The position numbers and the translations under genes are program-made. A stretch of DNA of 64,000 bases from Buttiauxella selenatireducens (lineage in GTDB: Bacteria > Pseudomonadota > Gammaproteobacteria > Enterobacterales > Enterobacteriaceae), in contig NZ_CP133838.1 in assembly GCF_031432975.1 (NCBI RefSeq), positions 868,001 to 932,000 on the forward strand, given 5' to 3'. Below, one piece after another: positions 8,338 through 30,085 of this stretch (positions are counted from its first letter, which is position 1; each line of letters opens with the position of its first letter). Below the pieces are notes generated by a model, which made no database searches, was not told the origin of the DNA, and saw only the letters and a program-made list of their open reading frames with translations.

Positions 8338-8378
8338 GCATTTGATGTTTAGCAGGATGATATCGGTCAACACTGCTG

Positions 8379-8930
8379 TTTTCCGTTCACCCGCGCATTT
8401 GATTATCTCTGTAACCGTTGCTAACGGTGAACGTGCCAGGAGGGTTACGCCACCCTCCTGGCGACCTCGGCGCCCGGTTTTAAATTGCCGCTGCGCGGTA
8501 AACCCCAGCTTTTCCCCAACGTTCAGGGTCGTTCGCGATTCGTTCCAGACGATCGCTCACTGGCGTGGTTCCCGACCACGCCACCCTGACTTATGGGGAA
8601 CACTGGGGCAATTTATACCGGGAACAAGGTCAAAACCCGTTTGGCTTTTGACGTTGAATTTGGGTTTTGTCGTTGAATTTGAGTCCGGCTTAAATCGCAC
8701 CGTTTTTTGCCCTTCAGTCGGGGTTGAGCCGCCGGGAGCGGCGAAAGAGAGCGATCGTCGGGAACGAATCGCGAACGACCGCGAATGTTGGGTGAAAAAC
8801 GGTGTTTACCGCGCAGCGGCGATTTATTTGCCGGGAGTCGGGGTCCATAGGGGAGCGACGGCGGCTCCCCTATGACGTTCACCGGTTCGGTGGTTCCATA
8901 TAACGGAGTACTTCTGGTGAACGGAACCTT
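8379..8930. repeat. Large palindromic intergenic element, copy 1
   Basis: About 550 bases bounded by TTCCGTTCACC (8381-8391) and GGTGAACGGAA (8916-8926). The interior is a giant imperfect hairpin. The left arm 8482-8558 pairs with 8749-8829, including a 20-base stretch with one mismatch. Side hairpins occur at 8435-8462 (11 bp, loop TACGCC), 8561-8583 and 8846-8874 (11 bp). A second copy in inverted orientation lies at 29522-30085. The central 8583-8720 holds short tandem units around TTTTGACGTTGAATTTG. It fills the gap between the convergent kduD and togB terminators. Not ERIC, REP or BIME by sequence; I do not recognise the family. No transposase is present, so if mobile it is non-autonomous. 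Confidence 0.85.
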
Positions 8931-8963
8931 CGCTATTTCCAATATAAATCACGTTCTTCAGAA

Positions 8964-8988
8964 CTAAAAAAGCCCCGCAAGCGGGGCC
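8964..8988 (-). terminator. Terminator after togMNAB
   Basis: Minus-strand stem GCCCCGC, loop TT, GCGGGGC followed by TTTTTT; it begins 28 bases beyond the togB stop codon. Confidence 0.9.
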
Positions 8989-9015
8989 ATACATAACACC
9001 TGGAACCAGGATTAA

Positions 9016-10305
9016 TTAACGCATCGCGCGCTTCAGAATCCGGTTACCCTGGCGCTCAAACTCAGCGGCCGTTTCTTCTACCGTTTTCTGACCATAATCG
9101 ATGTACTGCAAAGAGGTTCCGAACAAGGACACAATTTGCGGATCGTCAAAGTACGGGGACGTTGGCAGTTTGTTTGGCAGAGATTGCGCCAGTTTCAGAC
9201 CTGCAACCGCCGGATCGTTATCTTTGATCACGCCGTCAGCAGTCAACTGGGTGACAGCGGCTTTGCTCAACGGAACACCACGCTCCAGACCCAGCGCTTC
9301 TACGCCCGCTTTCTCGTTCAGCAAGAAATTAATCAGCATCGCTGCTTCTTTCGGATGCTTTGTTGTTTTACTGATAGAGAACATTTGCGCAGGTTTGAAG
9401 AACAGACCGGCGTCAGTGGCACCTGGCAGCATTGGGTAAGAGCCCAGTTCCAGTTTCGCTGGTGGCTTAAGGTTGTCGGAATACTTCTTAATGGCGGAGT
9501 TCCACATGTAAGTCCCGGCCCACTCGCCCTCAATCCACGGCTTCATCTCATACATGTTGCTCTTACCAAATGAGGCATAGTATTTGGTGTCAGGCATCAC
9601 GTGGCTGTCGATGAGTTTCTTATACATTCCAAAGAACTCAACCCACTGTTCTTTGCTGTAACCGAACTGTTTTTTCGTCGTGTCGATTTCTGGAATATTG
9701 TATTTCTGCACCATATAAGAGCGCAGCAAAGACAGCGTATCCTGATGCTCTAACACCACCGGGAAGTACTGCTTGCCCAATTTGGATTCGAAGGTTTTAC
9801 CCGCCGCCATCAGCTCATCCCATGTTTTCGGGTAAGCGATGCCCGCTTTTTTCCAGGTTTCGTCATTGAAATAGAACACGCGCGCGGTGACGGAAATCGG
9901 AATACCGTTCAGCTTTCCATCGACGGTCGTCGACTGCAATTCTTTAGGATCAAACTGCGCTAAATTCAGCTCATCTTTCACGGTATTCAGATCGTAGAAG
10001 CCGGTGCCGGTTTTAGAGAAAATAGGCAGCCAGTTCCAGTTTGTCTGCATCACGTCCGGTTCTGTGCCGCCAGCAATCTGGGTGGTCAGACGGGACAAGT
10101 GGCCGTCCCAACCGGTGTATTCAGACTTCACCTTAATGTTTGGATGTTGTTTCTGGAACTCTTCAACTGCCTTCAACGTCACCTGATGGCGTCCATTACC
10201 GCCCCACCAGGACAGTCGTAAATCAACGTCATCTGCCGCAAACGCCGAGCCAGCAGCCATGCCGAGTGTGGAGGCAATCAGGGTACTTAACAGCACTTTT
10301 TTCAT
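9016..10305 (-). CDS. togB: Oligogalacturonide ABC transporter, periplasmic binding protein
   Basis: 429 residues from the ATG at 10305 (CAGGAG nine bases upstream; an ATG at 10311 is too close to that site). A signal peptide MKKVLLSTLIASTLGMAAGS ends at AFA before ADDVDLRLSWWGG. It is a family-1 solute-binding protein: GTEPDVMQTNW, WDELMAAGKTFE, EGEWAGTYMWNSA and a C-terminal helical region. It captures oligogalacturonides in the periplasm for TogMN. It is the last gene of togMNAB, as in Dickeya, and is followed by a terminator. Confidence 0.9.
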   Translation of the reverse strand: MKKVLLSTLIASTLGMAAGSAFAADDVDLRLSWWGGNGRHQVTLKAVEEFQKQHPNIKVKSEYTGWDGHLSRLTTQIAGGTEPDVMQTNWNWLPIFSKTGTGFYDLNTVKDELNLAQFDPKELQSTTVDGKLNGIPISVTARVFYFNDETWKKAGIAYPKTWDELMAAGKTFESKLGKQYFPVVLEHQDTLSLLRSYMVQKYNIPEIDTTKKQFGYSKEQWVEFFGMYKKLIDSHVMPDTKYYASFGKSNMYEMKPWIEGEWAGTYMWNSAIKKYSDNLKPPAKLELGSYPMLPGATDAGLFFKPAQMFSISKTTKHPKEAAMLINFLLNEKAGVEALGLERGVPLSKAAVTQLTADGVIKDNDPAVAGLKLAQSLPNKLPTSPYFDDPQIVSLFGTSLQYIDYGQKTVEETAAEFERQGNRILKRAMR

Positions 10306-10320
10306 TATCATAGACTCCTG

Positions 10321-11448
10321 TCAGAGAGAGATGTTCTGTTCTGTTATTGCGTCGAAAATATGACATTTTTCCATGTCAAATTTGAAATACACCTTGCGGT
10401 GAAGACCCTTTTCAATCATTGGCTTAGCTTCATCGGAAGGGATGCGGCAGGTCATTTCGAAATCAGCTACTTTCAGGTAGATGAAGAACTCATGGCCCAT
10501 GTTCTCCACACGTACCATTTCACCGCTGGAGTGGCTGTCAGCGAACGGTTCATCTGAGAGAGAAATAAATTCAGGACGGATGCCGAAGAAGATGTCCTGA
10601 TCTTTGTATTCAGCACAACGCTTCTGCTGGCGCTCATTCAGGGCAAGCGTGTCATGACCGACGCTGATTTGCAGACTGCCATCTTTCTCAATCAGCTTAC
10701 TCGGGCGAATGTTCATTTCTGGCGCGCCAATAAAGCCTGCCACGAACATATTTTTCGGGTAGTGATAGAGGTTATCTGGCGTATCCACCTGCATGATGTG
10801 ACCGAGTTTCATCACGCAGATGCGGTCACCCATGGTCATCGCTTCGGTCTGATCGTGGGTCACGTAAACGGTGGTGGCCGGTTTGCCGCTCTTTTTGAGT
10901 TGCTTATGCAGGTCAGAGATACGAATACGCATCGACGCACGCAGTTTGGCATCAAGGTTAGACAGCGGTTCGTCAAACAAGAACACGTCGGGTTTTTTCA
11001 CAATCGCACGGCCTACGGCCACACGTTGTGCCTGGCCGCCTGACAGCTGGCGCGGCAGGCGGTCCATCAGCTCATCGAGTTCAAGAATTTTTGCGGCGTC
11101 ATTAACTTGAGTTTCAATCTGATCTTTTGGCAATTTGCTCAGTTTCAGGCCGAACGCCAGGTTCTCACGCACCGTCATGTGCGGATACAGGGCGTAGTTC
11201 TGGAACACCATCGCAATTCCGCGAGATTTTGGCGCCAGGTTGTTGACGACACGGTCGCCGATGCGGACTTCACCGCCGCTGATGGTTTCGAGGCCCGCCA
11301 GCATACGCAGGGTGGTTGATTTCGCGCAGCCAGAGGGGCCGACGATAACCATGAACTCACCGTCTTCAATTTTCAGGTCGATACCATGAACCGCCTGGAA
11401 GCCGTTGGAGTACACTTTTTGCAATTTGTTGAAAATAACTTCAGCCAT
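10321..11448 (-). CDS. togA: Oligogalacturonide ABC transporter, ATP-binding subunit
   Basis: 375 residues, a MalK/UgpC-type ATPase. Q-loop VFQNYALYPHMTVREN, signature LSGGQAQRVAVGRA, Walker B VFLFDEPLSNLDAK and switch His in VYVTHDQTEAMTMG are all present. A C-terminal TOBE/regulatory region follows from about residue 240. The Walker A reads GPSGCAKST rather than GPSGCGKST: the glycine before the lysine is alanine (codon gcg). It powers TogMN from the cytoplasmic face. Thirteen bases separate it from togN and nine from togB, so these genes are one operon. Confidence 0.93.
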   Translation of the reverse strand: MAEVIFNKLQKVYSNGFQAVHGIDLKIEDGEFMVIVGPSGCAKSTTLRMLAGLETISGGEVRIGDRVVNNLAPKSRGIAMVFQNYALYPHMTVRENLAFGLKLSKLPKDQIETQVNDAAKILELDELMDRLPRQLSGGQAQRVAVGRAIVKKPDVFLFDEPLSNLDAKLRASMRIRISDLHKQLKKSGKPATTVYVTHDQTEAMTMGDRICVMKLGHIMQVDTPDNLYHYPKNMFVAGFIGAPEMNIRPSKLIEKDGSLQISVGHDTLALNERQQKRCAEYKDQDIFFGIRPEFISLSDEPFADSHSSGEMVRVENMGHEFFIYLKVADFEMTCRIPSDEAKPMIEKGLHRKVYFKFDMEKCHIFDAITEQNISL

Positions 11449-11461
11449 GATATTCCCTCAC

Positions 11462-12376
11462 TTAACCTTTAATTCCGCTGCTGGTCACGCCTTGAACGAA
11501 GTAGCGTTGAGCCAGGAAGAAGATGATGATCGATGGCAGAATGGAGATGCTCGCCATTGCCAGAATTTCGTTCCATGGAGCGCCTTCAGTCACGTCGATA
11601 GACATTTTGAGCGCCAGTGCAATGGGGTATTTGTCTACGCTGTACACATAAATCAGCGGCCCGATGAAGTCGTTCATTGACCACATGAACTGGAACAGGG
11701 CGACGGAGATAATGGCCGGTTTCAGAATCGGCACGACCACATACCACAGCACCTGGAAGGAGTTGCAGCCATCAATTTGCGCGGCTTCTTCCATATCGCG
11801 TGGAACACCACGCAGGAACTGGATCAACATGAAGACAAAGAATCCCTGGGTTGCGAACGCCATTGGCAGCCACAGCGGCAGATAGCTATTCAACATGCCC
11901 ATTTCACGGAACATCAGGTATTGCGGGATTAACAGCACGGTGCTGGGTAGCAGCATGGTCGTAATCAGCGTGGCGAACCAAAACTTCTTGAACGGGATTT
12001 CGAAACGGGCGAAGCCGTAAGCGACAATCGTTGAAGAGATAATGGTCAGCAGCACTTTTGGAATCACATACTGCATGGTGTTCCACATGTAGTGACCAAA
12101 GGTGTACTCAGTACCGGTTTTCCAGCCGTTGACGAAACCGTCGCTGGTTGGATTTGACGGCCACAGACCCAGAGTGGTGAAGATCTCGTGGTTCGGTTTA
12201 AATGCCGCAGAGAACATCCACACCAGCGGGTAGAGCATTAGCAGACCGACAAATATCAGCACCACATAGCGGATGGTACGGCTGATTTTTTCGCGACGTA
12301 ACGTACGTGCGACTTCTTGCTCGGCCAAATCTGTCTGGCTTGTAGACCCGAGCTGGTTATTTGAAATATCAGCCAT
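11462..12376 (-). CDS. togN: Oligogalacturonide ABC transporter, permease N
   Basis: 304 residues from the ATG at 12376, preceded by GGGAGG; an upstream frame extension would run deep into togM. It is a MalG-type inner-membrane permease with six predicted segments (first YVVLIFVGLLMLYPLVWMFS) and the EAA loop EEAAQIDGCNSFQVLW followed by VVPILKP, which docks onto the ATPase. The cytoplasmic N-terminus is about 40 residues. Its start overlaps the end of togM by 8 bases, suggesting translational coupling. Confidence 0.92.
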   Translation of the reverse strand: MADISNNQLGSTSQTDLAEQEVARTLRREKISRTIRYVVLIFVGLLMLYPLVWMFSAAFKPNHEIFTTLGLWPSNPTSDGFVNGWKTGTEYTFGHYMWNTMQYVIPKVLLTIISSTIVAYGFARFEIPFKKFWFATLITTMLLPSTVLLIPQYLMFREMGMLNSYLPLWLPMAFATQGFFVFMLIQFLRGVPRDMEEAAQIDGCNSFQVLWYVVVPILKPAIISVALFQFMWSMNDFIGPLIYVYSVDKYPIALALKMSIDVTEGAPWNEILAMASISILPSIIIFFLAQRYFVQGVTSSGIKG

Positions 12377-13259
12377 TTTTGCCTCCCTTATCTGCGGAGT
12401 AGAACACCCAGTATTTCGATGACTTAAAGGCGATGGAGGCAAAGACCGCCACGACCAGGAACAGAACCCACGCCAGCGCTGCGCCATAACCCATATCGAA
12501 GTATTTGAACGCCGTGTCGTAGATGTAGAGTGAGAACAAGTAGGTATAGTGAGTCGGGCCGCCGCCGGTAATGATGTATGGCGCGGTAAACTCCTGGAAC
12601 GCCTGCGTGGTCTGCATAATGAAGTTGAAGAAAATAACCGGTGTAATCAAAGGCACCGTCACTTTCATAAACATCTGCCATTTAGACGCACCGTCGATCA
12701 TTGCTGCTTCATATTGTGATTGCGGGACGTTTTGCAACGCGGCAAGGAAGATGACCATTGCAGAACCGAACTGCCAGACACGCAGCAGCGTAACGGACAT
12801 CAGCGCCAGAGAAGGCTCGCCCAGCCAGTTCACCGGGTCCAAACCAAACACGCCGATAAAGCTGTTGAGCAGTCCATCGATAGCAAACAGCGCACGCCAT
12901 AAAACCGCGATAGCCACCGAGCTACCCAGAATGGATGGGATGTAATACGCAGTACGGAAGAAACCGATGCCGCGCAGTTTAAAGTTCAGAACAAAGGCGA
13001 TACCCAGTGCGAAAGCGAGTTTTAACGGGATAGTTAAAAACACGTACGCAAACGTCACGCCCATGGATTTCCAGAAGAGTGAATCTTCGGTCAACATGTA
13101 GCGATAGTTTTCAATACCGGTGAACACCGGCGGGTTCATCAAATCGTACTCAGTAAAACTGAGGAAGAAAGATGAAACAAACGGGAAGGCAGTAAAGATA
13201 AGCAACCCGATTATGTAGGGCGATATCCATGCCAATCCCAGCATTTTGTTTTCATTCAT
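12369..13259 (-). CDS. togM: Oligogalacturonide ABC transporter, permease M
   Basis: 296 residues, a MalF-type permease without the large periplasmic insertion of MalF. Six predicted membrane segments start at LGLAWISPYIIGLLIFTAFP. The EAA motif is EAAMIDGASKWQMFMKVTVP. The start ATG at 13259 has GGTAGGT upstream. It is the first gene of togMNAB; the promoter lies in the 13260-13600 region with KdgR-type boxes. Together with TogN it forms the membrane channel. Confidence 0.92.
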   Translation of the reverse strand: MNENKMLGLAWISPYIIGLLIFTAFPFVSSFFLSFTEYDLMNPPVFTGIENYRYMLTEDSLFWKSMGVTFAYVFLTIPLKLAFALGIAFVLNFKLRGIGFFRTAYYIPSILGSSVAIAVLWRALFAIDGLLNSFIGVFGLDPVNWLGEPSLALMSVTLLRVWQFGSAMVIFLAALQNVPQSQYEAAMIDGASKWQMFMKVTVPLITPVIFFNFIMQTTQAFQEFTAPYIITGGGPTHYTYLFSLYIYDTAFKYFDMGYGAALAWVLFLVVAVFASIAFKSSKYWVFYSADKGGKNG

Positions 13260-13488
13260 ACATACCTACCTGGCGCTCAATGGTTTAAAAATTGTTTTTA
13301 CAAAATTGTTCTTGAAACTCATTGCCTCACCCGTAAATCCATACGGCTGGGTCGGAAAGCGGTGGACGTACATATCATATTCATTCCCTGATAATTGATT
13401 GATAAATAAGTATTAAATCACCAGCGCCTGTTTTTGATTTCTGTGGGGGATTTACAGATTTCATAAACATGCGAACCGTGGTTCCTGA

Positions 13489-13509
13489 TTTGTGAAACAT
13501 TGTTTTAAA
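13489..13509. promoter_or_regulatory. KdgR-type operator 1 upstream of togMNAB
   Basis: TTTGTGAAACATTGTTTTAAA carries GAAAC/GTTTT half-sites. It is about 230 bases before togM, so the operon would have a long leader or a closer unrecognised promoter. The rest of 13260-13980 is AT-rich and I see no gene in it. Confidence 0.65.
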
Positions 13510-13567
13510 TAATCTTATTACTATTTGTAAATGAGTCATTCGATTAATCATGGAAATGTGATCAAAG

Positions 13568-13584
13568 TCGAAACGCTGTTTCGA
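13568..13584. promoter_or_regulatory. KdgR-type operator 2 upstream of togMNAB
   Basis: TCGAAACGCTGTTTCGA is a near-perfect palindrome with GAAAC-GCT-GTTTC core, 58 bases beyond the preceding box. Confidence 0.65.
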
Positions 13585-13932
13585 TTGTTTGATGCATGTG
13601 GCGTTTTTCTCTTTGCGGCTAAAAATGACCTGAAATAAGTCAGGGTATAGGGACGAAGGAGTGATGAATAAATTTCTTATCGATTGGAGAGCGTTGCAGA
13701 AGAGGGTAACTATTTTATTGTTTAAATAATCATATAAATCATATGGTTATTATTTTATCAATAATGAGGGTTTCTTATTTGTTTCGTGTGTAAATATTAA
13801 CGGAGAGGGGGTTTTGTTTAATGTGAGCCTGAGCGTCTTATATTTATGCTGAAATGAAATAATGAATGGGGAGAAAGGGAATACGGAAGGAGTTTTCGGT
13901 ATTATTAGCAACCTAATATATTTATATTAGTG

Positions 13933-13974
13933 ATGAACTGCTCCCGGCTTTCGCGCCAGTTCAGAGCAGTTCAT
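13933..13974. terminator. Hairpin downstream of kdgF
   Basis: Perfect 11-base stem ATGAACTGCTC / GAGCAGTTCAT with a 20-base loop, starting 7 bases past the kdgF stop codon. No U-run follows on the minus strand, so it may protect the 3' end rather than act as a classical intrinsic terminator. Confidence 0.5.
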
Positions 13975-13981
13975 TCAGCAA

Positions 13982-14308
13982 TTATTTCTTCAGGAAGTCT
14001 TCACGTATTGGAGTGAAGGTATCCAGCAGCGTGCCTGCGGCAAGGCAAACGCAACCGTGCATCACGTGAGGTTCTTTATACAGGGTGTCGCCTGCGCTAA
14101 CGCGCTGGGTTTCTTCACCGATAGTGAATTCAAATTCGCCAGACAGCACATAAGTTAACTGCTCATGCGGGTGATTATGCATCGGGCCGATGGCACCTTT
14201 TTCAAAGTTTACCTGCACCGCCATCATTTTACCGTCGTGCGCGAGAATGCGGCGGCTCACGCCCGCACCTAAATCTTCCAATTGAGTATCTTTAATAAAA
14301 GTGAACAT
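13982..14308 (-). CDS. kdgF: Unsaturated galacturonate-opening cupin KdgF
   Basis: 108 residues from the ATG at 14308; the open frame extends 40 codons upstream but passes through a KdgR-type operator and lacks family similarity there. Single cupin domain with metal-ligand pattern HNHPHEQLTYVLSGEFEF and a later His in EPHVMHGC. KdgF converts 4,5-unsaturated galacturonate released by lyases to 5-keto-4-deoxyuronate. It is a single gene, divergent from ygeA, with the operator about 20 bases before its start. Confidence 0.9.
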   Translation of the reverse strand: MFTFIKDTQLEDLGAGVSRRILAHDGKMMAVQVNFEKGAIGPMHNHPHEQLTYVLSGEFEFTIGEETQRVSAGDTLYKEPHVMHGCVCLAAGTLLDTFTPIREDFLKK

Positions 14309-14327
14309 TTCTCGATCCCTTATCATG

Positions 14328-14342
14328 TGAAACAACGTTTCA
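14328..14342. promoter_or_regulatory. KdgR-type operator of kdgF
   Basis: TGAAACAACGTTTCA, an exact palindrome around a 3-base centre. It is identical to the core of the first kduD box and lies 20 bases before the kdgF start, a position suited to blocking transcription. Confidence 0.75.
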
Positions 14343-14473
14343 TTTAAATAATCGTATCCTGAAAAATTCCTTTGCGATAGTTGGTGCCGGCGTTTTGTAG
14401 TGCCGATCACGCTTTCGCATTGCGGCATCTCTCTGATATAACCAATGAAATAAATATGAACAGGTGACGCGTG

Positions 14474-15169
14474 ATGAAAACTATTGGTCTGCTGGGCGGG
14501 ATGAGTTGGGAATCGACCATCCCCTATTATCGTTTGATAAATGAAGGGGTTAAGCAGCGCTTAGGTGGGTTGCACTCGGCCAAAATCGTGCTGCACAGCG
14601 TGGATTTCCATGAAATCGAAGCGTGCCAGGCCAAGGGCGAATGGGATTTAGCAGGCGATATGCTGGCACAAGCGGCGCTCGGCCTGCAAAAAGCCGGAGC
14701 CGAGGGCATCGTACTTTGTACCAACACCATGCACAAAGTGGCACACCACATTGAGTCACGTTGCACGCTGCCGTTCTTGCATATCGCCGATGCAACAGGG
14801 CGCGCCATCACCGCGCAAAATGTACAGCGTGTTGCGCTGCTGGGTACGCGTTACACCATGGAACAGGATTTCTACCGGGGTCGCCTGCATGCTGAGTTTG
14901 GTATTGAATCGTTGATCCCAAATGAAGAACAGCGTTTGCGTATTAATCAGATAATCTTTGAAGAACTGTGCCTGGGAAAAATCACTGCCGAGTCTAAGCA
15001 CTTTTATCAGCAGGTGATTGAGGAATTGCAGGGGCAGGGCGCGCAGGGTGTGATTTTTGGCTGCACTGAAATCGGTTTGCTGCTCACTCAGCAAGATTGC
15101 ACACTACCGGTATTCGATACTGCGGCTATTCACGCGGCTGATGCAGTCAATTTCATGTTGGAAGAATAG
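14474..15169 (+). CDS. ygeA: Broad-specificity amino-acid racemase YgeA
   Basis: 231 residues; E. coli YgeA has 230. The ATG at 14474 with CAGGTG eight bases upstream is preferred over the adjacent GTG. Asp/Glu racemase family with two catalytic cysteines, one in VLCTNTMHK (about residue 83) and one in FGCTEIG (about 197). It is PLP-independent and interconverts several L/D amino acids, in E. coli mainly homoserine and methionine types. It keeps its E. coli neighbourhood near lysR/lysA. A hairpin with T-run follows 150 bases downstream. Confidence 0.93.
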
Positions 15170-15317
15170 TCTTTTTTATTTTAAAGTTCAGAGGGTTAAT
15201 GGATAAAGCAGAGTATCCTTAGCGCTCGCCGGGTCACCTTCTGCGTTTTGTGTGTTATAAATTTGTTAAGCAGCGCACGTTTTTTCATACAAGCTGCACC
15301 TCTGACATCCCCGTAAT

Positions 15318-15352
15318 CTGGCGGTTGAGCTTCGCTCTCCCGCCTTTTGTTA
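15318..15352 (+). terminator. Terminator or attenuator between ygeA and the MFS gene
   Basis: Stem GGCGG...CCGCC with inner GAGC/GCTC and TTC loop, followed by TTTTGTTATTT. It is 46 bases before the MFS start, closer to that gene than to ygeA, so it could act on the MFS leader. Confidence 0.6.
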
Positions 15353-15397
15353 TTTCTATACCCGTCATACCTGGGGTATTCAACCTGGAGTTATTCC

Positions 15398-16564
15398 ATG
15401 CCTGTTTCCTTACTCGCGCTGGCGATGAGTGCGTTTGCCATCGGCACGACGGAGTTCGTTATTATGGGCCTGCTGCCCGATGTCGCGGGGGATCTGGCGA
15501 TTTCTATTCCCTCGGCGGGCTGGCTGATTAGCGGCTACGCGCTCGGGGTGGCAATCGGCGCACCGATCATGGCATTACTGACGGCACGATTGCCGCGCAA
15601 ACTTTCGCTGATTCTGCTGATGGTGATTTTTATTGTCGGTAACATTCTGTGTGCGCTGGCGCTGAATTACTCGTTCCTGATGCTGGCTCGCATTATTACG
15701 GCATTGTGCCACGGCGCCTTCTTCGGCATTGGCGCGGTGGTGGCTGCCAGTCTGGTCGCGCCAAATCGCAAAGCTTCGGCGGTAGCGTTGATGTTCACCG
15801 GCCTGACATTAGCGAATGTGTTGGGCGTGCCGATTGGCACCTGGTTCGGGCAGTTGTTCGGGTGGCGATCGACGTTCTGGGGCGTGGCGATTATCGGCGT
15901 TGTGGCTTTTGTGGCGCTGATTGTCAGTTTACCCGCGCAAAAGGAGGAAACGCCTACCGACCTGAAACGCGAAATCAGCGCGCTGGCGAATGGCAAACTG
16001 TGGCTTTCTCTTTCTATGACGGTGTTTTTTGCCGCCGCGATGTTTGCCCTGTTTAGTTATATTGCGCCAATGCTGCTACAGGTCACGGGAGTGACGCATC
16101 AGGGCGTGAGCTGGACTTTGTTCCTGATTGGCGCGGGTTTAACCGTCGGGAATATCCTTGGTGGGCGACTGGCTGACTGGCGCGTTTCCTTCAGCCTGAT
16201 CCTGAGCTTTAGCCTGATTGCTCTCTTCTCGTTGCTGTTCCACTGGACCAGCCATGGCATGTGGCTTGCGGAGATCACGCTGTTTCTCTGGGCGATGGCG
16301 GCGTTTGCTACCGTTCCCGCGCTGCAAATCAACGTCGTGCTTCACGGCAAAGATGCGCCCAACTTAGTCTCCACGCTCAACATTGCCGCTTTTAATGTGG
16401 GCAATGCGTTAGGCGCGTGGGTGGGGGGCTCCGTCATTGCCCACGGTTTCGACCTCACCGCCGTACCGGTTGCAGCGGCTGGGCTTGCGGCTATCGGGCT
16501 GATCATTTGCCTGATTAACTTCAGCAATGGCACCGGGCATCAACAACCTGCAACCGAGCAGTAA
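15398..16564 (+). CDS. DHA1-family MFS transporter (AraJ/YdhP-like)
   Basis: 388 residues from the ATG at 15398 (CTGGAG seven bases upstream). Twelve predicted membrane segments. MFS landmarks include GTTEFVIMGLLPDVA in helix 1, RLPRK in the 2-3 loop, ARIITALCHGAFFGIG in helix 4 and ALMFTGLTLANVLGVPIG in helix 5, the antiporter motif of drug/sugar exporters. Probably a proton-driven exporter; substrate unknown. In E. coli araE occupies the position between ygeA and the kdu genes, so this is a different accessory gene. It converges with lysR, with one base between stop codons. Confidence 0.85.
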   Translation: MPVSLLALAMSAFAIGTTEFVIMGLLPDVAGDLAISIPSAGWLISGYALGVAIGAPIMALLTARLPRKLSLILLMVIFIVGNILCALALNYSFLMLARIITALCHGAFFGIGAVVAASLVAPNRKASAVALMFTGLTLANVLGVPIGTWFGQLFGWRSTFWGVAIIGVVAFVALIVSLPAQKEETPTDLKREISALANGKLWLSLSMTVFFAAAMFALFSYIAPMLLQVTGVTHQGVSWTLFLIGAGLTVGNILGGRLADWRVSFSLILSFSLIALFSLLFHWTSHGMWLAEITLFLWAMAAFATVPALQINVVLHGKDAPNLVSTLNIAAFNVGNALGAWVGGSVIAHGFDLTAVPVAAAGLAAIGLIICLINFSNGTGHQQPATEQ

Positions 16565-16565
16565 C

Positions 16566-17489: not shown

Positions 17490-17601
17490 GATTATCTCCT
17501 TTATCCATATCATATATGAATAGACTTGCGAGAAATCGATATTTTTTCTTCATCTCACTCTATGGCGTAATGAAGAAAATGAATGATTACCGGAGCTCGT
17601 C

Positions 17602-21649: not shown

Positions 21650-21656
21650 GGAAGGC

Positions 21657-23084
21657 ATGAGCAACGTAAAAGTCACCATTCCAAAAGATTTTATTCTCGG
21701 TGCTGCGGCTTCGGCCTGGCAAACCGAAGGCTGGAGCGGCAAAAAAGAAGGGCAGGATTCCTGGCTTGATGCCTGGTACAAAAACGACCGGCACGTCTGG
21801 CACAACGGTTATGGCCCGGCAGTCGCGACGGATTTCATTAATCGATACCGCGAAGACGTGTGGCTGATGAAACAGGCGGGGCTGACGCACTATCGTACCT
21901 CGATAAACTGGTCACGTTTTTTCACCGATTACGAAAATGGCATCATCGATGAAGATTACGCGCAGTATTACGATAATCTTTTCGACGAAATGCTGAGTAC
22001 CGGTATTGAGCCGATGATCTGCCTTGAACACTACGAATTGCCTGCCACGCTATTCGAAAACCACGGCGGTTGGGCATCGAAAAAAGTCGTTGAGTTATAT
22101 GTGCTGTATGCGGAAAAAGTCTTTGCCCGTTACGCCCACAAGGTGAATCGCTGGTTTACCTTCAACGAACCGATTGTGGTGCAAACGCGCGTTTACCTGG
22201 ATGCGCTGCGCTGGCCGTATGAGCAAAACACCCATAAATGGATGCAGTGGAATCACCATAAAAACCTCGCTACGGCGAAAGTCGTGAAACTGTTCCGCGA
22301 GAAAGGTTATCGCGGGACTGTCGGCTGCATTCTCAACCCGGAAGTCACCTATGCGCGATCCAGTGCGGCACACGATCGGCAGGCCGCGCAGATTTACGAT
22401 CTGTTCTACAACCGCGTTTTTTTAGATCCTTTAGTGCACGGTGAATACCCGCAACAACTGATTGAACTGCTGGAAAAACATCATGTGCAGTGGGATTACA
22501 CGGAAGAAGAACTGGCGATCATTCGTGAAAACACGGTCGATGAATTGGGTATCAATCTGTATTACCCGCACCGAGTTAAAGCGCCGTCGCGTGCGTGGAA
22601 TCCAGAAACGCCTTTCCATCCCGCTTATTACTACGAACCGTTTGAATTACCGGGGCGGCGCATGAATACGTCACGGGGCTGGGAAATTTATCCGCGCATT
22701 ATTTACGACATGGCGATGCGGATTAAAACCGAGTATCGCAATATCCCATGGTTTGTCGCGGAAAGCGGTATGGGGACAGAAAATGAAGCGCAATTCCGCA
22801 ATTCCGACGGCGTCATTGAAGACAACTATCGCATTGCGTTTATCAGCGAACATCTGTACCAAACGCTGCGTGCGCGCGAAGACGGGGCAAACTGCCAGGG
22901 TTACATGCTGTGGGCGTTTACAGACAACGTTTCACCCATGAATGCGTTCAAAAACCGCTATGGTTTAATTGAAATCAATCTGCAAAATAACCGCGAGCGT
23001 CGTGCGAAAAAATCGGCCCATTGGTATCGTGCGCTGAGTGAGTCTCGCGTCTTACAGCTCGATATTGATGATGAATGGAAATAA
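21657..23084 (+). CDS. GH1 phospho-beta-glycosidase
   Basis: 475 residues from the ATG at 21657, with GAGGAAGG immediately upstream; a TTG-type upstream extension would overlap EIIC. GH1 fold: substrate region LGAAASAWQTEGW, acid/base Glu in TFNEPIV and nucleophile Glu in WFVAESGMG (ESG in place of the usual ENG). It should hydrolyse the 6-phospho-beta-glucoside delivered by the EIIC. Whether the natural substrate is phospho-cellobiose, an aryl-glucoside or a phospho-galactoside cannot be told. No terminator is obvious in the 56 bases before the next gene. Confidence 0.92.
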   Translation: MSNVKVTIPKDFILGAAASAWQTEGWSGKKEGQDSWLDAWYKNDRHVWHNGYGPAVATDFINRYREDVWLMKQAGLTHYRTSINWSRFFTDYENGIIDEDYAQYYDNLFDEMLSTGIEPMICLEHYELPATLFENHGGWASKKVVELYVLYAEKVFARYAHKVNRWFTFNEPIVVQTRVYLDALRWPYEQNTHKWMQWNHHKNLATAKVVKLFREKGYRGTVGCILNPEVTYARSSAAHDRQAAQIYDLFYNRVFLDPLVHGEYPQQLIELLEKHHVQWDYTEEELAIIRENTVDELGINLYYPHRVKAPSRAWNPETPFHPAYYYEPFELPGRRMNTSRGWEIYPRIIYDMAMRIKTEYRNIPWFVAESGMGTENEAQFRNSDGVIEDNYRIAFISEHLYQTLRAREDGANCQGYMLWAFTDNVSPMNAFKNRYGLIEINLQNNRERRAKKSAHWYRALSESRVLQLDIDDEWK

Positions 23085-23140
23085 TCTTTTCAGATGGATA
23101 GTTTGATAAGCTAACGGATATTAATCAGCGGCAGAACACT

Positions 23141-23947
23141 ATGCCGCTGAGAATCAACAATGCGGGTGATATTGTGGACAAGGTAGTGCTTTCGCCAGAA
23201 AAAAAACAATACCAGGAAATTGGTGAGGATCTGCGCGCACAAATTATGCAGGGTTTGTATCCGGTTGGCTCGCGTTTGCCGCCCGAACGTAATATTGCTG
23301 AGACTTACGGCGTCAGTCGCACCATTGTTCGTGAAGCTTTGCTGATGCTTGAGTTACAAGGCACGGTGGATATTCGCCAGGGCTCGGGAGTGTATGTCAC
23401 TCGTGTTCCGGCAGAAAACGAAGCGGAAGAAGAGGCTTTTTTCAGTAGCGATATTGGCCCGTTTGAAATGCTACAAGCGCGCCAACTCCTGGAAAGTAAC
23501 ATTGCGGCATTTGCCGCAAAAATGGCGACCAAAGCCGACATCGATAACCTTAAACGTATCCTTGAGCAGGAACAGCGAGCCATTGCGATAAACGACCTTA
23601 GCCAGGATAACTGCAAGATGTTTCATTTGGTTTTGGCAGGCGCTTCGCAAAACCAGATGTTGCTGGCGACGGTGGAGAGTATCTGGCGTCATCTTGATAG
23701 CAGCCCGATGTGGCAGAAATTACGCTCAAATATTGATACCCGCAGTTATCGCCTGAAATGGCTTGGCGACCTGCAAACGATATTGGCAGCTCTGCGCCGT
23801 CGTGATGTGATGGGGTCGTGGCAGGCGATGTGGCAACACCTGGAAAATGTCAAAAACAGCCTGCTGGAGCAGTCCGACTCTGATGCGCCAGATTTTGACG
23901 GCTATCTTTTCGAGTCGGTCCCTATTTTCCAGGGAAAGTTAATGTGA
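23141..23947 (+). CDS. GntR regulator, FadR subfamily (UxuR/ExuR-like)
   Basis: 268 residues. N-terminal winged helix with YQEIGEDLRAQIMQGLYPVG, LPPERNIAETYGVSRTIVRE and LELQGTVDIRQGSGVYV, typical of the UxuR/ExuR hexuronate regulators, then an all-helical FCD ligand domain (about residues 100-250). Its effector is probably a sugar acid, but the adjoining genes (GH1 enzyme, acetyltransferase) do not settle the target. The ATG at 23141 has only a weak ribosome site; a GTG at 23174 is possible. It overlaps the next gene by 4 bases. Confidence 0.85.
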   Translation: MPLRINNAGDIVDKVVLSPEKKQYQEIGEDLRAQIMQGLYPVGSRLPPERNIAETYGVSRTIVREALLMLELQGTVDIRQGSGVYVTRVPAENEAEEEAFFSSDIGPFEMLQARQLLESNIAAFAAKMATKADIDNLKRILEQEQRAIAINDLSQDNCKMFHLVLAGASQNQMLLATVESIWRHLDSSPMWQKLRSNIDTRSYRLKWLGDLQTILAALRRRDVMGSWQAMWQHLENVKNSLLEQSDSDAPDFDGYLFESVPIFQGKLM

Positions 23948-24393
23948 AAATCCTGCCGCTTTACGCCGTACCTCAGCATGCACAGCAAGTTATTGACTGG
24001 CAGTGGCAGGCGTTCGGCACTGAAGACAGCCGTGACTTTTTCGCTTCGATTGTCGCAACAAGCCAGCGAGAAGGGGAAATGCCGCTGACTTTTGTTGCTG
24101 TAGAGGGTGAGAAATTGGTCGGGACGGTGGGATTGTGGCGCTGTGATTTGATCAGTAGGCAGGATCTTTATCCGTGGCTCGCTGCGTTATACATCGATGA
24201 AAACCAGCGTGGGCGGGGACTCGGAGAAAAACTTCAGGAACACGTTATCCATTACGCCCGTACACTCGGCTACCCACAACTTTATCTCTATTCTGCCTGC
24301 AAAGAGTACTACGAGCGTTTTGGCTGGCAGTACATCGGAGACGGGTTGGATTACCCGAATAAGCCCGTTCACATTTATCGTTTTAGTCTTTAA
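23944..24393 (+). CDS. GNAT-family N-acetyltransferase
   Basis: 149 residues starting with GTG in a GTGA overlap with the GntR stop, indicating translational coupling. Acetyl-CoA motif A is DENQRGRGLGEKLQEH and motif B ACKEYYERFGWQYIG. Substrate unknown. The coupling suggests co-expression with the GntR regulator. It converges on galR, with only 3 bases between the two stop codons. Confidence 0.85.
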   Translation: MKILPLYAVPQHAQQVIDWQWQAFGTEDSRDFFASIVATSQREGEMPLTFVAVEGEKLVGTVGLWRCDLISRQDLYPWLAALYIDENQRGRGLGEKLQEHVIHYARTLGYPQLYLYSACKEYYERFGWQYIGDGLDYPNKPVHIYRFSL

Positions 24394-24396
24394 ACA

Positions 24397-25404
24397 TCAC
24401 TCATCAGAATGTGAAATCACCGAATGTCGGCGCACAAGTGTTGGGCTAAACATATTGGTTATTTCTGGCAATTCGCGTTTTTCAGCCAGTGCCAGCGCTA
24501 ATTCTGCGGCTTGTGCGGCCATGGTGATTATTGGATAACGAACAGTGGTCAGACGTGGGCGGACATAACGTGAAATCAATACATCATCGAAGCCAATCAA
24601 TGAAATCTCTTTCGGAACATCAATACCGTTATCGTTGAGCACACCCATTGCCCCGGCGGCCATGGAGTCGTTATAACACGCCACTGCGCTGAAATGCCTG
24701 CCGCGCCCGAGCAACTCCGTCATTGCTTGCTCACCACCGCTTTCGTCGGGCTCGCCGTAAGTCACTAACCGATCGTTGACCGGTAAACCGTGTTCAGTCA
24801 GCGCGTCGTAATAACCTTGCAAACGGTCTTCGGCATCTGAAATCTGGTGGTTGGAACAAAGATAGCCAATTTTGGTATGGCCTTGCTGAATTAAATGACG
24901 CGTCGCAAGCCATGCGCCATAGCGGTCATCCAGAGCCACACATCGCTGTTCGAAGCCGGGAAGAATGCGGTTGATAACAACCATACCTGGCATCTGTTTC
25001 ATTAATGAAATCAATTCGCTATCAGGGATTTTTTTTGCATGCACCACCAGGGCTGCACAACGATGGCGAATCAGCTGCTCTATAGCCTGGCGTTCTTTTT
25101 GTTCGTTGTGATAACCGTTACCAATCAGTAAAAAGTTGCCAGTACGATAGGCCACTTGCTCGACGGCTTTGACCATCGCGCCAAAGAAGGGGTCGGACAC
25201 GTCTCCCACAATCAGGCCAATTGTTTCAGTGGTTTGCTGGGCAAGTGCTCTCGCATTAGCGTTGGGATGGTAGTTAAGTTCTTCCATCGCGCTGGTCACT
25301 GCCTGACGCGACGCATCGCTGGCTTTCGGTGAATCATTAATGACACGAGATACCGTGGCGACAGAAACGCCTGCCAGTTTTGCTACATCCTTTATTGTCG
25401 CCAT
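24397..25404 (-). CDS. galR: Galactose regulon repressor GalR
   Basis: 335 residues, about eight fewer than E. coli GalR at the C-terminus (ends RRHSVISHSDE), with very high similarity before that. HTH IKDVAKLAGVSVATVSRVIN; ligand domain GLIVGDVSDPFFGAMVKAVE, ACYNDSMAAGAMG and IGFDDVLISRY. It binds galactose and represses gal and mgl genes, with DNA looping in E. coli. A good GalR-type operator lies 18 bases before its own start, suggesting autoregulation. It keeps its E. coli position next to the omr sRNAs and aas. Confidence 0.96.
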   Translation of the reverse strand: MATIKDVAKLAGVSVATVSRVINDSPKASDASRQAVTSAMEELNYHPNANARALAQQTTETIGLIVGDVSDPFFGAMVKAVEQVAYRTGNFLLIGNGYHNEQKERQAIEQLIRHRCAALVVHAKKIPDSELISLMKQMPGMVVINRILPGFEQRCVALDDRYGAWLATRHLIQQGHTKIGYLCSNHQISDAEDRLQGYYDALTEHGLPVNDRLVTYGEPDESGGEQAMTELLGRGRHFSAVACYNDSMAAGAMGVLNDNGIDVPKEISLIGFDDVLISRYVRPRLTTVRYPIITMAAQAAELALALAEKRELPEITNMFSPTLVRRHSVISHSDE

Positions 25405-25421
25405 CGAAAGTGTTCCTGAGT

Positions 25422-25437
25422 GGGTAAGCGTTTACAC
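25422..25437. promoter_or_regulatory. GalR-type operator at galR
   Basis: GGGTAAGCGTTTACAC matches the GalR/GalS consensus GTGKAANCGNTTNCAC at all but one defined position. It is 18 bases before the galR start codon, consistent with autorepression. Confidence 0.72.
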
Positions 25438-25525
25438 AATTTTAAGTGTTACGGAAAAGGCGCGCTACTTCAAGGGCGCAACTGTAGTTCGCGTCGCAAA
25501 CTAAAGCAAAATGCAGCCATTTTTA

Positions 25526-25540
25526 GTGTAATCGTTACAC
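25526..25540. promoter_or_regulatory. Second GalR-like palindrome
   Basis: GTGTAATCGTTACAC, perfect half-sites but one base shorter at the centre than the GalR consensus, 89 bases farther upstream. It may be a weaker GalR site or belong to another LacI-family protein. Confidence 0.45.
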
Positions 25541-25690
25541 TTTTGCGACCCTGAAATTCAAGCGCAGCGGCATTAAAAGGCATGCTCTGGATTTTTAAAG
25601 ATTTCAGGCCAAATCTTTGCTTACAGTTTGCATCGCGCTGTTGCTATTTCGCCATGGCGAAAACTCACAAGCCACTGCTACATTTGAAGT

Positions 25691-25773
25691 CCCAGAGGTA
25701 TTGATAGGTGATGTCAGCATCTAATGCTGATCACATGAATTACACCAACCTGCGCGGATGCGCAGGTTTTTTT
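25691..25773 (+). ncRNA. omrB: Small RNA OmrB
   Basis: Begins CCCAGAGGTATTGATAGGTG, the conserved 5' seed of OmrA/OmrB. It contains the OmrB-specific ACATGAATTACACCA segment and ends with the terminator CCTGCGC-GGAT-GCGCAGG followed by nine T. The internal hairpin (GTCAGCATCTAATGCTGAT) differs from E. coli but keeps pairing. OmrB is an Hfq-dependent sRNA, induced by OmpR in E. coli, that represses outer-membrane genes, ompR and csgD. Same place (between galR and aas) and strand as aas, as in E. coli. Confidence 0.93.
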
Positions 25774-25894
25774 TTGCCCAAAATTCACCAGCCTGTAACA
25801 GGAAAAGATGTTTTAAACACCTGGTTGCACTTTCCGCTAATTCCCTTGCTTTTTCTCACTGGTGAGCCTGCTAAGAGTACGCCACAATTCAAAT

Positions 25895-25982
25895 CCCAGA
25901 GGTATTGATTGGTGAGAATTCTAGGTACGTTGTTAAGTACAATTCTTTTGCACCAACCTGCGCAGATGCGCAGGTTTTTTTT
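25895..25982 (+). ncRNA. omrA: Small RNA OmrA
   Basis: Begins CCCAGAGGTATTGATTGGTG and shares the seed with OmrB. The middle is OmrA-like, with a hairpin built on GGTACG...AAGTAC and TTTTGCACCAACC. It ends with the same CCTGCGC-AGAT-GCGCAGG terminator and an eight-T run. The two sRNA genes are 121 bases apart, a conserved tandem duplication with diverged centres. Targets overlap with those of OmrB. Confidence 0.93.
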
Positions 25983-26097
25983 GCCTTTTTTTCAGACTTT
26001 ACATTCACTCACACTATCGCTCCTTTAATGTTACTCATGTAATCTGCAGGCATTACACTTAACTGTCTGCGGCTTATTCACGACAAAGGGAGTTGCT

Positions 26098-28257
26098 ATG
26101 CTATTTGGTTTTTTCCGGACGCTATTTCGTATTTTGTTCAGAGTACGACTTTATGGCGATCAACACGTTCTTTCCCAATCGCGCACTCTGATCGTCCCCA
26201 ATCACGTTTCGTTTATTGACGGGATTTTATTAGCGCTATTTTTACCGGTGCGCCCGGTTTTCGCCGTCTATTCTTCCATTAGCCAGCAGTGGTACATCCG
26301 TTGGCTGAAATCACTGATTGATTTTGTGCCGCTTGACCCAACTAAACCGATGTCGATTAAACATCTGGTGCGTCTGGTTGAGCAGGGCCGTCCGGTGGTT
26401 ATTTTCCCGGAAGGACGTATCTCGGTGACCGGTTCTTTGATGAAAATCTATGAAGGGGCCGGGTTTGTCGCTGCTAAATCGAATGCGACGGTCATTCCGA
26501 TTCGTATTGATGGCGCTGAACTGACGTTCTTTAGCCGCCTGAAAGGGTTAGTCAAACGCCGCTTATTTCCACGTATCAGCCTGCATATCCTGCCACCGAC
26601 TTCGCTTCCCATGCCGGACGCGCCACGTGCGCGTGAACGTCGCAAAATGGCCGGAGAAATGCTGCATCAAATAATGATGGAAGCGCGTATGGCAGTGCGC
26701 CCAAGAGAGACGTTATACGAAGCGTTACTCGCCGCGCAATATCGTTATGGTGAGCGCAAAAACTGCATCGAAGACATTAATTTCAAACCCGACACATACC
26801 GCAGCTTGCTGACCAAAACGCTGTTTGTCGGGCGTATTTTGAATAAATACACCGCTCCTGGTGAAACGATTGGCCTGATGTTGCCGAATGCGGCAATCAG
26901 CGCGGCGGTGATTTTTGGTGCTTCTTCGCGCGGACGCATTCCGGCGATGATGAACTACACCTCAGGTGTGAAAGGGCTGACCAGCGCGATTACGGCCGCG
27001 CAACTCAAAACCATTTTCACCTCCCGTCAGTTTCTCGACAAAGGCAAGTTATGGCATTTGCCAGAGCAACTTTCGCAGGTGCGCTGGGTGTTTCTGGAAG
27101 ATTTAAAAGCCGATGTTACGCTCGCCGATAAAATTTGGATTTTCAGCCATTTATTTATGCCGCGCCTGGCACAGGTTAAACAGCAACCCGAAGATGCGGC
27201 GATGGTGTTATTTACATCCGGCTCGGAAGGAAATCCCAAAGGTGTGGTGCACAGCCACAAAAGCTTACTGGCGAACGTTGAGCAAATTCGTACTATCGCG
27301 GATTTCACCGCCAACGATCGCTTTATGTCGGCACTGCCGCTGTTCCACTCGTTTGGTCTGACAGTCGGCTTATTTACCCCGCTACTCACGGGGGCAGAAG
27401 TATTCCTCTATCCAAGCCCTCTGCATTACCGCATTGTGCCGGAACTGGTTTATGACCGTAACTGCACCGTATTGTTTGGCACCTCGACCTTCCTTGGCAA
27501 CTATGCACGTTTCGCCAATCCTTATGACTTTTTCCGTCTGCGTTACGTGGTTGCGGGAGCCGAAAAACTTCAGGAAAGCACTAAGCAGCTTTGGCAGGAT
27601 AAATTTGGCCTGCGTATTCTTGAAGGTTATGGTGTTACGGAATGCGCGCCAGTCGTTTCAATTAATGTCCCTATGGCGGCAAAAGTAGGCACGGTGGGGC
27701 GTATTTTGCCAGCGATGGATGCCCGTCTGATGGCGGTACCCGGTATTGAAAACGGCGGGCGGTTGCAACTGAAAGGGCCGAACATCATGAAAGGCTATCT
27801 GCGAGTCGAAAACCCTGGCGTGCTGGAAGCGCCGAGTGCTGAAAATGCGCAGGGCGAAGTGGAAGCGGGTTGGTATGACACGGGCGATATTGTCAGATTC
27901 GATGAGCAGGGTTTTTGTGTGATTCAGGGGCGCGCTAAACGCTTCGCCAAAATTGCGGGTGAAATGGTTTCGCTGGAAATGGTCGAGCAACTGGCGCTGG
28001 GTGTTTCACCAGAGAAAATGCATGCAACCGTTATCAAAACGGATGCGGCGAAAGGTGAAGCGTTGGTGATGTACACCACGGATAACGAACTCAATCGAGA
28101 AAAACTGCTGCAATACGCTCGCGCCCATGGTGTGCCTGAGTTGGCTGTACCACGAGATATCCGCTTCCTGAAACAGTTACCTGTGTTGGGCAGTGGTAAA
28201 CCTGATTTTGTCAGCCTGAAAGCAATGGTAGACCAACCGGAGACAAAGCATGCGTGA
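26098..28257 (+). CDS. aas: Bifunctional 2-acyl-GPE acyltransferase / acyl-ACP synthetase
   Basis: 719 residues, the length of E. coli Aas. The N-terminal acyltransferase domain has the catalytic NHVSFIDG (HX4D) and FPEGRIS. From about residue 230 follows an AMP-forming ligase with [27 protein letters not shown] and [13 protein letters not shown]. It activates fatty acid on ACP and re-acylates lysophosphatidylethanolamine brought in by LplT at the inner membrane. It overlaps lplT by 8 bases, so the repair pathway is co-translated. Confidence 0.96.
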
Positions 28258-29446
28258 TAGCGCCGTGAACGATACCTCCATTTGGTCCAGAGGCATGATG
28301 GCAGTCACTTGCGCGCAATTTTTATCGGCGTTTGGTGATAACGCTTTGCTGTTTGCAACCCTGGCGGTATTGAAGCAGCAGTTTTATCCCGACTGGAGCC
28401 AACCCATTTTGCAGATGGTATTTGTTGGCGCTTACATTTTATTTGCCCCGTTTGTCGGCCAGGTGGCTGATAGTTTTGCTAAAGGGCGAGTGATGATGTT
28501 TGCCAACAGCCTCAAGCTGGCAGGTGCTGTGGTTATCTGCTTTGGCTTTAATCCGTTTGTCGGTTATACGCTGGTGGGGATTGGTGCTGCGGCTTATTCT
28601 CCAGCGAAATACGGAATCCTTGGTGAGTTAACGACCGGCGATCGTCTGGTTAAGGCAAATGGCCTGATGGAATCATCGACCATTGCTGCCATTCTGCTGG
28701 GTTCTATGGCGGGCGGTGTGCTGGCTGATTGGCATATTGTTGCGGCACTTGGCGTATGTGTGCTGGTGTATGCTGGGGCGGTCGTGGCGAATATTTTTAT
28801 TCCGAAGCTTGCGCCAGCCCGTCCTGGACAGTCCTGGCGCTTTACCCCGATGACCCGCAGTTTCTTCAATGCTTGCCGTACACTTTGGCAAAATGGTGAA
28901 ACTCGCTTCTCGTTAGTCGGCACCAGTTTGTTCTGGGGCGCGGGCGTGACGTTGCGTTTCTTACTGGTTTTATGGGTGCCGGTGGCGCTGGGAATCACCG
29001 ATAACGCGACGCCAACGTATCTGAATGCCATGGTTGCAGTGGGCATTGTGGTTGGTGCAGGGGCTGCGGCAAAACTGGTGACACTGAAAACGGTGGCGCG
29101 GTGTATGCCGGCGGGGATTTTGATCGGCGTTGGCGTTTTGTTCTTTGCCATGCAAAACGCGTTGCTGCCGTCTTACATGCTGCTCGTGCTGATCGGTATT
29201 TTGGGCGGGTTCTTCGTTGTTCCGCTTAACGCACTTCTTCAGGAGCGAGGCAAACATTCGGTTGGCGCGGGAAATGCCATTGCGGTGCAGAATCTCGGTG
29301 AAAATACCGCGATGTTGCTGATGTTGGGGCTTTACTCACTGGCGGTAAAAACCGGTGCGCCGATTGTCGGTATTGGCATTGGCTTTGGGGCGGTGTTTGC
29401 GCTGGCAATTGGTGGGTTGTGGGTTTGGCAGATTCGTCAGAAATAG
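28250..29446 (+). CDS. lplT: Lysophospholipid transporter LplT
   Basis: 398 residues (E. coli 397), MFS fold with about twelve membrane segments. Characteristic [35 protein letters not shown] and [20 protein letters not shown]. It flips lysophosphatidylethanolamine across the inner membrane to the Aas enzyme. Its start lies within the aas end. After it comes about 75 bases with no clear terminator and then copy 2 of the palindromic element. Confidence 0.95.
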
Positions 29447-29521
29447 GGGGCATCGCCATCTGGCTGTCTCTTAGTCATCTTTTTGAGGTTAGGTGGAGAG
29501 GGGCACTTTGTCAGTGTCGAA

Positions 29522-30085
29522 AAGGTTCCGTTCACCCGAAGTCTTCCGTTATATGCAGTTACCGAACCGGTGAACGACTTAGGGTGGCCACCGTCGCCAC
29601 CCTAAGAACCCGGACTCCCGGCAAATAAATCGCCGCTGCGCGGTAAACACCGTTTTTCACCCAACATTCGCGGTCGTTCGCGATTCGCTCCCGGCGATCG
29701 CTCTCTTTCGCCGCTCCCGGCGGCTCAACCCCGACTGAAGGGTAAAAAAACGGCGCGATTTAAGCCGGACCCAAAGTCAACGTCAAAACCTAAGGTCAAA
29801 ACCTAAGGTCAAAAGCCGAAGCGGTTTTGACTTTGTTCCCGGTATAAATTGCCCCAGTGTTCCCCATAAGTCAGGGGGGCGTGGTCGGGAACCACGCCAG
29901 TGAGCGATCGCCGGGAGCGAGTCGCGAACGACCCTGAACGTTGGGGATAAGCTGGGGTTTACCGCGAAGCGGCAATTTAAAACCGGGCGCCGAGGTCGCC
30001 AGGAGGATGGCGTAATCCTCCTGGCACGTTCACCGTTTACAACTGTTACAGAGATAACCAAACGCACGGGTGAACGGAAAAACAG
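29522..30085. repeat. Large palindromic intergenic element, copy 2
   Basis: About 564 bases, inverted relative to copy 1 at 8379-8930. Ends AAGGTTCCGTTCACC (29522-29536) and GGTGAACGGAAA (30069-30080). It has the same hairpin layout: 11-bp stems at 29578-29606 (loop CACCGTC) and 29998-30025 (loop GGCGTA) and the long central arms. The stem at 29578 reads CTTAGGGTGGC where copy 1 has CATAGGGGAGC; all three changes are compensated on the other side. Its internal tandem unit TTTTGACCTTAGG (minus strand) differs from copy 1. It lies between the convergent genes lplT and tas. Confidence 0.85.

Follow-up and report, generated by a model that had tools for sequence, protein, structure and literature searches.

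The 64,000-nucleotide stretch of Buttiauxella selenatireducens DNA analysed here (the window; assembly GCF_031432975.1, contig NZ_CP133838.1, positions 868,001 to 932,000 of the forward strand) contains two long palindromic elements, which we named copy 1 and copy 2. The left neighbour of copy 1 is a dehydrogenase gene on the + strand, and copy 2 is flanked by genes for an MFS transporter and an aldo/keto reductase, presumably lplT and tas judging by gene order. An earlier sequence-only reading had described two inverted copies of an unrecognised element of ~555 bp. Both copies are real and in opposite orientation, and their exact ends are given in Table 1, but ~555 bp covers no more than the core, and the element is larger, as the similarity continues into transposon-type ends. 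The core is indeed unrecognised, whereas the outer ends belong to a known type, that of IS50/Tn5. Moreover, the two copies are not alone: ten full or partial places were fetched from the window genome, of which seven are nearly full-length. Matches were found in all 11 genus genomes searched, including that of the window, and in 14 of 60 relatives overall.

The core is composed of two inverted units of ~250 bp with three hairpins each, and in every unit a side hairpin and a long arm accompany a terminal repeat pair (TTCCGTTCACC ... GGTGAACG). The core ends TTCCGTTCACC and GGTGAACGGAA are located at 8381-8391 and 8916-8926 in copy 1, and at 29526-29536 and 30069-30079 in copy 2. Both copies fold far more stably than their shuffled versions (z of -19.5 for copy 1 and -18.3 for copy 2, reached by 0 of 100 shuffles each). 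The core lengths differ between copies by non-multiples of three; the element therefore has no coding capacity, and a coding element was ruled out.

Table 1. Positions of the parts of the two palindromic copies in the window.
Feature	Position	Strand	Remarks
Copy 1, palindromic core, two inverted units	8381..8926	+	TTCCGTTCACC...GGTGAACGGAA at ends
Copy 1, remnant internal to the outside-type end; end absent	8352..8380	+	resembles kept flanks elsewhere
Copy 1, remnant internal to the inside-type end; end absent	8927..8956	+	resembles kept flanks elsewhere
Copy 1, left side hairpin (helix 6)	8434..8463	+	block difference in conspecific genome G060
Copy 1, right side hairpin (helix 17)	8846..8874	+	CATAGGGGAGC...GCTCCCCTATG
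Copy 1, two long arms	8481..8826	.	120-nt arms, 78% complementary, 106 nt apart
Copy 2, palindromic core	29526..30079	-	orientation opposite to copy 1
Copy 2, inside-type IS50-like end	29464..29480	-	CTGTCTCTTAGTCATCT
Copy 2, truncated remnant internal to the outside-type end; end missing	30080..30106	-	flank comparison
Copy 2, side hairpin	29578..29606	-	CTTAGGGTGGC...GCCACCCTAAG
Copy 2, other side hairpin	29998..30025	-	GCCAGGAGGAT...ATCCTCCTGGC
Copy 2, two long arms	29626..29979	.	120-nt arms, 76% complementary, 114 nt apart

The nature of the ends was deduced from better-kept copies in congeners, whose flanks align past TTCCG/CGGAA. The outer flank of these copies terminates in CTGTCTCTTATACACAACTC..., and the opposite flank, read inwards, in CTGTCTCTTAGTCACATCTTTG. 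Their outer end, CTGTCTCTTATACACA..., is the one that IS50/Tn5-like insertion sequences have on the outside, and an inside-type end is found opposite. With at most one mismatch allowed, the 16-base end pattern was detected in 10 of 12 congeners at 40 places, B. agrestis accounting for 21; a few of these places were without an adjoining core, and the reversed control gave 0. Tolerating up to 4 mismatches per end, we parsed 14 Buttiauxella loci in which both parent-type ends are present, with an overall length of 170-726 bp and an inner TTCCGTTCAC...GTGAACGGAA section of 54-610 bp. Target-site duplications, which had been proposed as a check of the sequence-only reading, are found at these loci: perfect and unshifted 9-bp duplications occur in four of the 14 (CCCAAAGGG, CCCTAAGGG, CTCAGGGAG and CTCAGTCCG), and with a shift of one or two bases six are perfect, three match at 8/9 bases, one at 7 and four at 5. 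In B. agrestis, two copies (L042 and L045) have a core without IS50 ends, and at another place (L073) one core arm is interrupted by a small-hairpin stretch absent from other copies.

The insertions are concentrated at one type of short hairpin. CCCTCTC or GAGAGGG was present within 20 bp of 11 of the 14 insertions, compared with 91 of 5000 random 40-bp windows from the same loci, and the joined flanks of four loci (L064, L078, L081 and L082) form perfect stems of 8-10 bp. Hairpins of the form CCCTCTCC-N3-9-GGAGAGGG were counted 247 times in the window genome, 143 times in B. agrestis and 11 times in genome G010, with 0 in the reversed control. Two such CCCTCTCC/GGAGAGGG hairpins are located 38 bp apart in the window (62896-62916 and 62934-62953), and the 247 of this genome often occur in short arrays.

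Occupied and empty sites could also be compared, as had been suggested beforehand. The copy 2 locus contains a short hairpin without the element in nine of 12 congeners, the element in the window genome and in the conspecific genome G060, and an independent element with its own duplication in B. agrestis. Genome G060 also carries copy 1, and its copy 2 orthologue (L252) has lost both palindrome arms, the outer parts being left. At the copy 1 locus, two of 12 genomes have copy 1, one (G004) is arranged differently, and nine have none within the 330 bases displayed; the G004 locus (L242), 3' of a kduD-like gene, holds a differently arranged element of the family in the same gene gap as copy 1. 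Of 16 elements, 11 are found between convergent open frames, or 12 with the + strand dehydrogenase gene taken as the left neighbour of copy 1, both being raw counts.

Because of the IS50-type ends, the 9-bp duplications and the CCCTCTC/GAGAGGG hairpin targets, we interpret the element as a non-autonomous IS50-type mini-transposon, and the palindromes of the window are very probably decayed copies of such a miniature inverted-repeat transposable element (MITE) of Buttiauxella, related to IS50/Tn5. The full element consists of an IS50-type outside end, a core usually made of two inverted ~250-bp units, and an inside-type end. An IS50-family transposase acting in trans would have excised it and reinserted it, mostly at intergenic CCCTCTCC...GGAGAGGG hairpins, creating a 9-bp duplication. 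The window copies would be old and immobile.

The relationship to IS50 is supported by loci that carry the transposase. The Tn5-type transposase DNA-binding domain PF14706 was detected in 14 of 343 genomes of the family, 13 of them above the curated cut-off, and the identical 16-base end, with 0 mismatches, adjoins IS50-type transposase domains at loci of five further genomes of this family (L088/L098, L090/L101, L093, L094 and L095). The far end at some transposase loci (L088, L097, L098 and L102) is CTGTCTCTTGATCA..., an arrangement that corresponds at the sequence level to the plan of IS50, with its outside end and inside end. In addition to the 16 identical outer bases and the 9-bp duplication shared with IS50/Tn5 (IS4 family, IS50 group), the other end of the Buttiauxella element, CTGTCTCTTAGTCACATCT, resembles the inside end CTGTCTCTTGATCACATCT of L097. 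In contrast to IS50/Tn5, the Buttiauxella element lacks a transposase gene and is inserted mostly at one hairpin repeat, and likeness to the IS50-like elements was seen in the terminal bases only. A 95-base end query gave no match in E. coli or plasmid records.

Three observations weigh against an IS50-type mini-transposon. Neither window copy retains both ends, since both are missing from copy 1 and copy 2 keeps the inside-type end only; the window copies were consequently rejected as intact IS50-type MITEs. The duplications are poor (5/9) in four of the 14 loci, and PF14706 was found in 0 of 12 Buttiauxella genomes, one per species, so that other strains may carry it. The simplest reading is that the mini-transposon was mobilised in trans by a transposase that may since have been lost or may reside in unsampled strains.

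The hairpin unit itself, as identified by sequence pattern, is widespread in Enterobacteriaceae. A pattern scan gave at least 119 stretches, 80 of which were listed by title, and the genera among the matches listed include Enterobacter, Citrobacter, Leclercia, Phytobacter, Silvania, Siccibacter, Cedecea, Lelliottia, Escherichia and others in addition to Buttiauxella. Measured to a shared end motif, 46 of the 51 single units are 248-250 bases long. Weak matches to the window query were found in 41 of 5426 E. coli genomes; the gap separating asmA from yegH holds an internally deleted unit in E. coli K-12 and no unit in strain P4. In the same gap (L117), some E. coli strains have genes for a helix-turn-helix protein and a RelE/ParE-type toxin where others hold the unit. 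The core had no match in plasmid or phage records.

Among the pattern matches listed, 32 rows are double units, with a second end 480-650 bp away (one element was counted in both orientations). We searched the 200 bp on each side, with at most 3 mismatches, and found an IS50-type end on one or both sides of seven rows, an IS4-type end on one or both sides of 11, and neither in 14; the same patterns occurred in 1 (IS50-type) and 13 (IS4-type) of 2000 random 200-bp windows. The IS4 ends (TAATGCC..TCAGTTAAG) were read from E. coli MG1655, in which IS4 is the insG element. By blastn, the IS4-type rows match window copy 1 over just 0-210 of its 546 positions, and six of the 11 share none; they are therefore classified, by sequence, as distant relatives in plan and ends and not as close copies. 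Unlike these rows, the window element has IS50-type ends, and an IS4-type MITE was rejected as its identity: IS4-type ends were not seen at the Buttiauxella copies displayed, although they were seen in other genera.

The sequence-only reading had based a maintained structure on six stem pairs changed on both sides between copies 1 and 2. Exactly these six pairs were recovered as changed on both sides and still Watson-Crick. The reading leaves uncounted, however, 18 further pairs that were altered and not kept as Watson-Crick: of the pairs in the minimum-energy structure of copy 1, copy 2 alters 24, of which 11 are broken on one side, 4 become G-U and 3 are changed on both sides and broken. With the structure of copy 2 as reference, 6 of 23 changed pairs are kept double changes. 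We extended the comparison to an alignment of 16 double copies from two genomes, using the structure of copy 1, and the covariation proposed for checking exceeds both controls: 122 cells are changed on both sides, whereas shuffling gives 53.5 +/- 6.7 and sliding the partners gives no more than 40. At the level of pairs, 33 have a both-sided change compared with 26.7 +/- 2.8 in shuffles, and 12 of 500 shuffles reach 33, whereas further pair types run the opposite way (83 observed, 93.1 shuffled).

The covariation is unevenly distributed. Helices 6 and 17 (the side hairpins) and helix 10 (a short arm hairpin) account for 20 of the 33 pairs and contain zero pairs varying on one side only, whereas the long stem (helix 8) has both-sided changes in 6 of 67 pairs, and many of its pairs are broken. 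By genome, the side hairpins show 0.05-0.15 substitutions per site and 95-99% Watson-Crick pairs, with G-U in 0 of 350 cells; the long stem shows 0.04-0.08 substitutions per site and 83-88% Watson-Crick pairs. The two short arm hairpins do not follow a simple rule: in this register, just 76% and 60% of their pairs in B. agrestis are Watson-Crick. We also collected side hairpins from 291 distinct units, after dropping hits near contig ends or with fewer than 450 bases downstream; 32 units without a hairpin at the threshold used were dropped, and 155 distinct hairpins were obtained. Their 1769 pairs comprise 1722 Watson-Crick, 6 G-U, 18 A-C and 23 other. Where nearest hairpins with the same geometry have one differing stem pair, both bases of the pair differ in 51 comparisons and a single base in 43, the comparisons not being independent; it is as though double changes had often been single events. 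Furthermore, the left side hairpin of copy 1 and its edge differ from the G060 orthologue by seven substitutions in ~35 bases, which turn this segment into the allele of another copy of the same genome (L035), a T-C mismatch included. Over the whole of copy 1, the orthologue comparison gives one kept double change among 12 changed pairs.

The sequence-only reading is supported in part: the covariation is genuine, but it resides mostly in short-loop hairpins, the long arm stems mostly break when they change, G-U is scarce in the side hairpins and one orthologous hairpin changed as a block, which favours copying at the DNA level. The sequence-only reading had itself named copying within the hairpin as the main alternative, and we favour it here together with exchange between copies. 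One hairpin arm would template the other, producing the double changes, and hairpin blocks would be exchanged between copies; whether hairpin-templated correction and inter-copy exchange generated the double changes is, in our estimate, evenly balanced. As a combined reading, an IS50-type mini-transposon with DNA-level hairpin copying is nevertheless, on balance, the probable one. Against it, the copying is deduced from patterns, and in single units read on the minus strand G-U-type mismatches exceed those of A-C type (64:21, 47:32 and 11:8), an excess that RNA selection could also give.

Such an excess is what a transcribed element maintained as RNA might leave, and the covariation above both controls and the very stable predicted RNA folds agree with that explanation, which we nevertheless consider improbable. 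RNA-level selection normally leaves G-U states, and RNA selection is disfavoured because these are nearly absent from the side hairpins. The long stems break freely, and double units have no G-U excess over A-C-type mismatches (47:43 on the plus strand, 35:47 on the minus strand). At the gathering score, an Rfam 15 scan of the window gave six matches, and neither element is covered by any of them; the regions matched (25691-25982, 55433-55784 and 60070-60275) are ordinary and correspond to OmrA/OmrB-like RNAs, three tRNA genes and GcvB. With matches up to E 1 admitted, two weak ones below gathering were found in 8300-9000, outside the core. Terminator-like sites were at chance level, none in copy 1 and one weak in copy 2. 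Two further comparisons do not discriminate: six control RNAs had 0 mismatches, which made them uninformative as controls for the mismatch count, and the G-U fraction in default folds was 0.056-0.080 for the elements, 0.092 for six control RNAs and 0.062 for their antisense. The short hairpins could instead be under selection as folded DNA, a cruciform or single strand recognised by a protein, for example in transposition or lagging-strand replication, for which pairing would suffice. Such selection would likewise keep pairs while the sequence drifts, in agreement with the well-paired but substituted side hairpins, with the constant unit length, and with loops at least as conserved as at least one arm in five of six geometry classes. 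Equally perfect pairing is expected from hairpin-templated copying, however, and the T-C mismatch of the G060 allele does not fit selection. Selection for movement cannot be the sole cause, because the end-less window copies keep perfect or near-perfect side hairpins. We regard selection on DNA hairpins as unlikely, though tenable; copying with exchange ranks above it, and both rank well ahead of RNA selection.

A different question is whether the hairpin unit is an independent, older mobile element that later came to reside inside several kinds of mini-transposon. The B. agrestis copies L042 and L045, the single units in varied surroundings across many genera, and the asmA-yegH gap, empty in E. 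coli P4 and occupied in other strains, are consistent with it. For the unit alone, however, we found neither a duplication nor a transposase nor a rule of insertion, loss of the ends or recombination would look no different, and a deletion could account for the P4 gap; we consider this origin rather doubtful. More speculative still is the proposal that the ~250-bp unit is a folded-DNA module in its own right, spread across Enterobacteriaceae and carried by IS50- and IS4-type mini-transposons, in which the fold itself would be used and pairing kept independently of sequence.

Compared with known repeats, the Buttiauxella element resembles bacterial MITEs in being short, multi-copy and gene-less, with terminal inverted repeats, target duplications and a strong fold, as in the parts consulted of two reviews (PMC10969869, PMC2229807); it differs by its large size (up to 726 bp) and a core of very variable size between the same ends. 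The same parts of these reviews name no IS50-type MITE. REP/BIME, ERIC, BoxC and YPAL sequences are also intergenic and palindromic, with sizes of ~30-170 bp in the sections seen (PMC2267715, PMC2229807), whereas the Buttiauxella element is longer and has transposon ends and 9-bp duplications. REP/BIME, described in the excerpt consulted as high-copy palindromic units of 20-40 bp (PMC3733652), was ruled out, as the units here are ~250 bp, and ERIC, with a consensus of 127 bp in the portion used (PMC2229807), is set apart by length alone. In the open-access literature searched we found no recognisable description of the element, which is not proof of absence. Mini-transposons are already known; what is new is a variable hairpin core that is framed by IS50-type ends and has a hairpin repeat as its target.

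The ends of the Buttiauxella element almost match the laboratory Tn5 mosaic end, which is used in sequencing adapters. At one B. agrestis place (L073/L298, ~895,970 of G009 contig 1) the match to this 19-base sequence is exact. Tn5 transposase may consequently mobilise these elements, and adapter-trimming software may clip natural sequence. It is important to mention that covariation in bacterial repeats is, alone, no evidence of a functional RNA. The many related hairpins of the family supply material for testing whether compensatory changes originate from copying or from selection.

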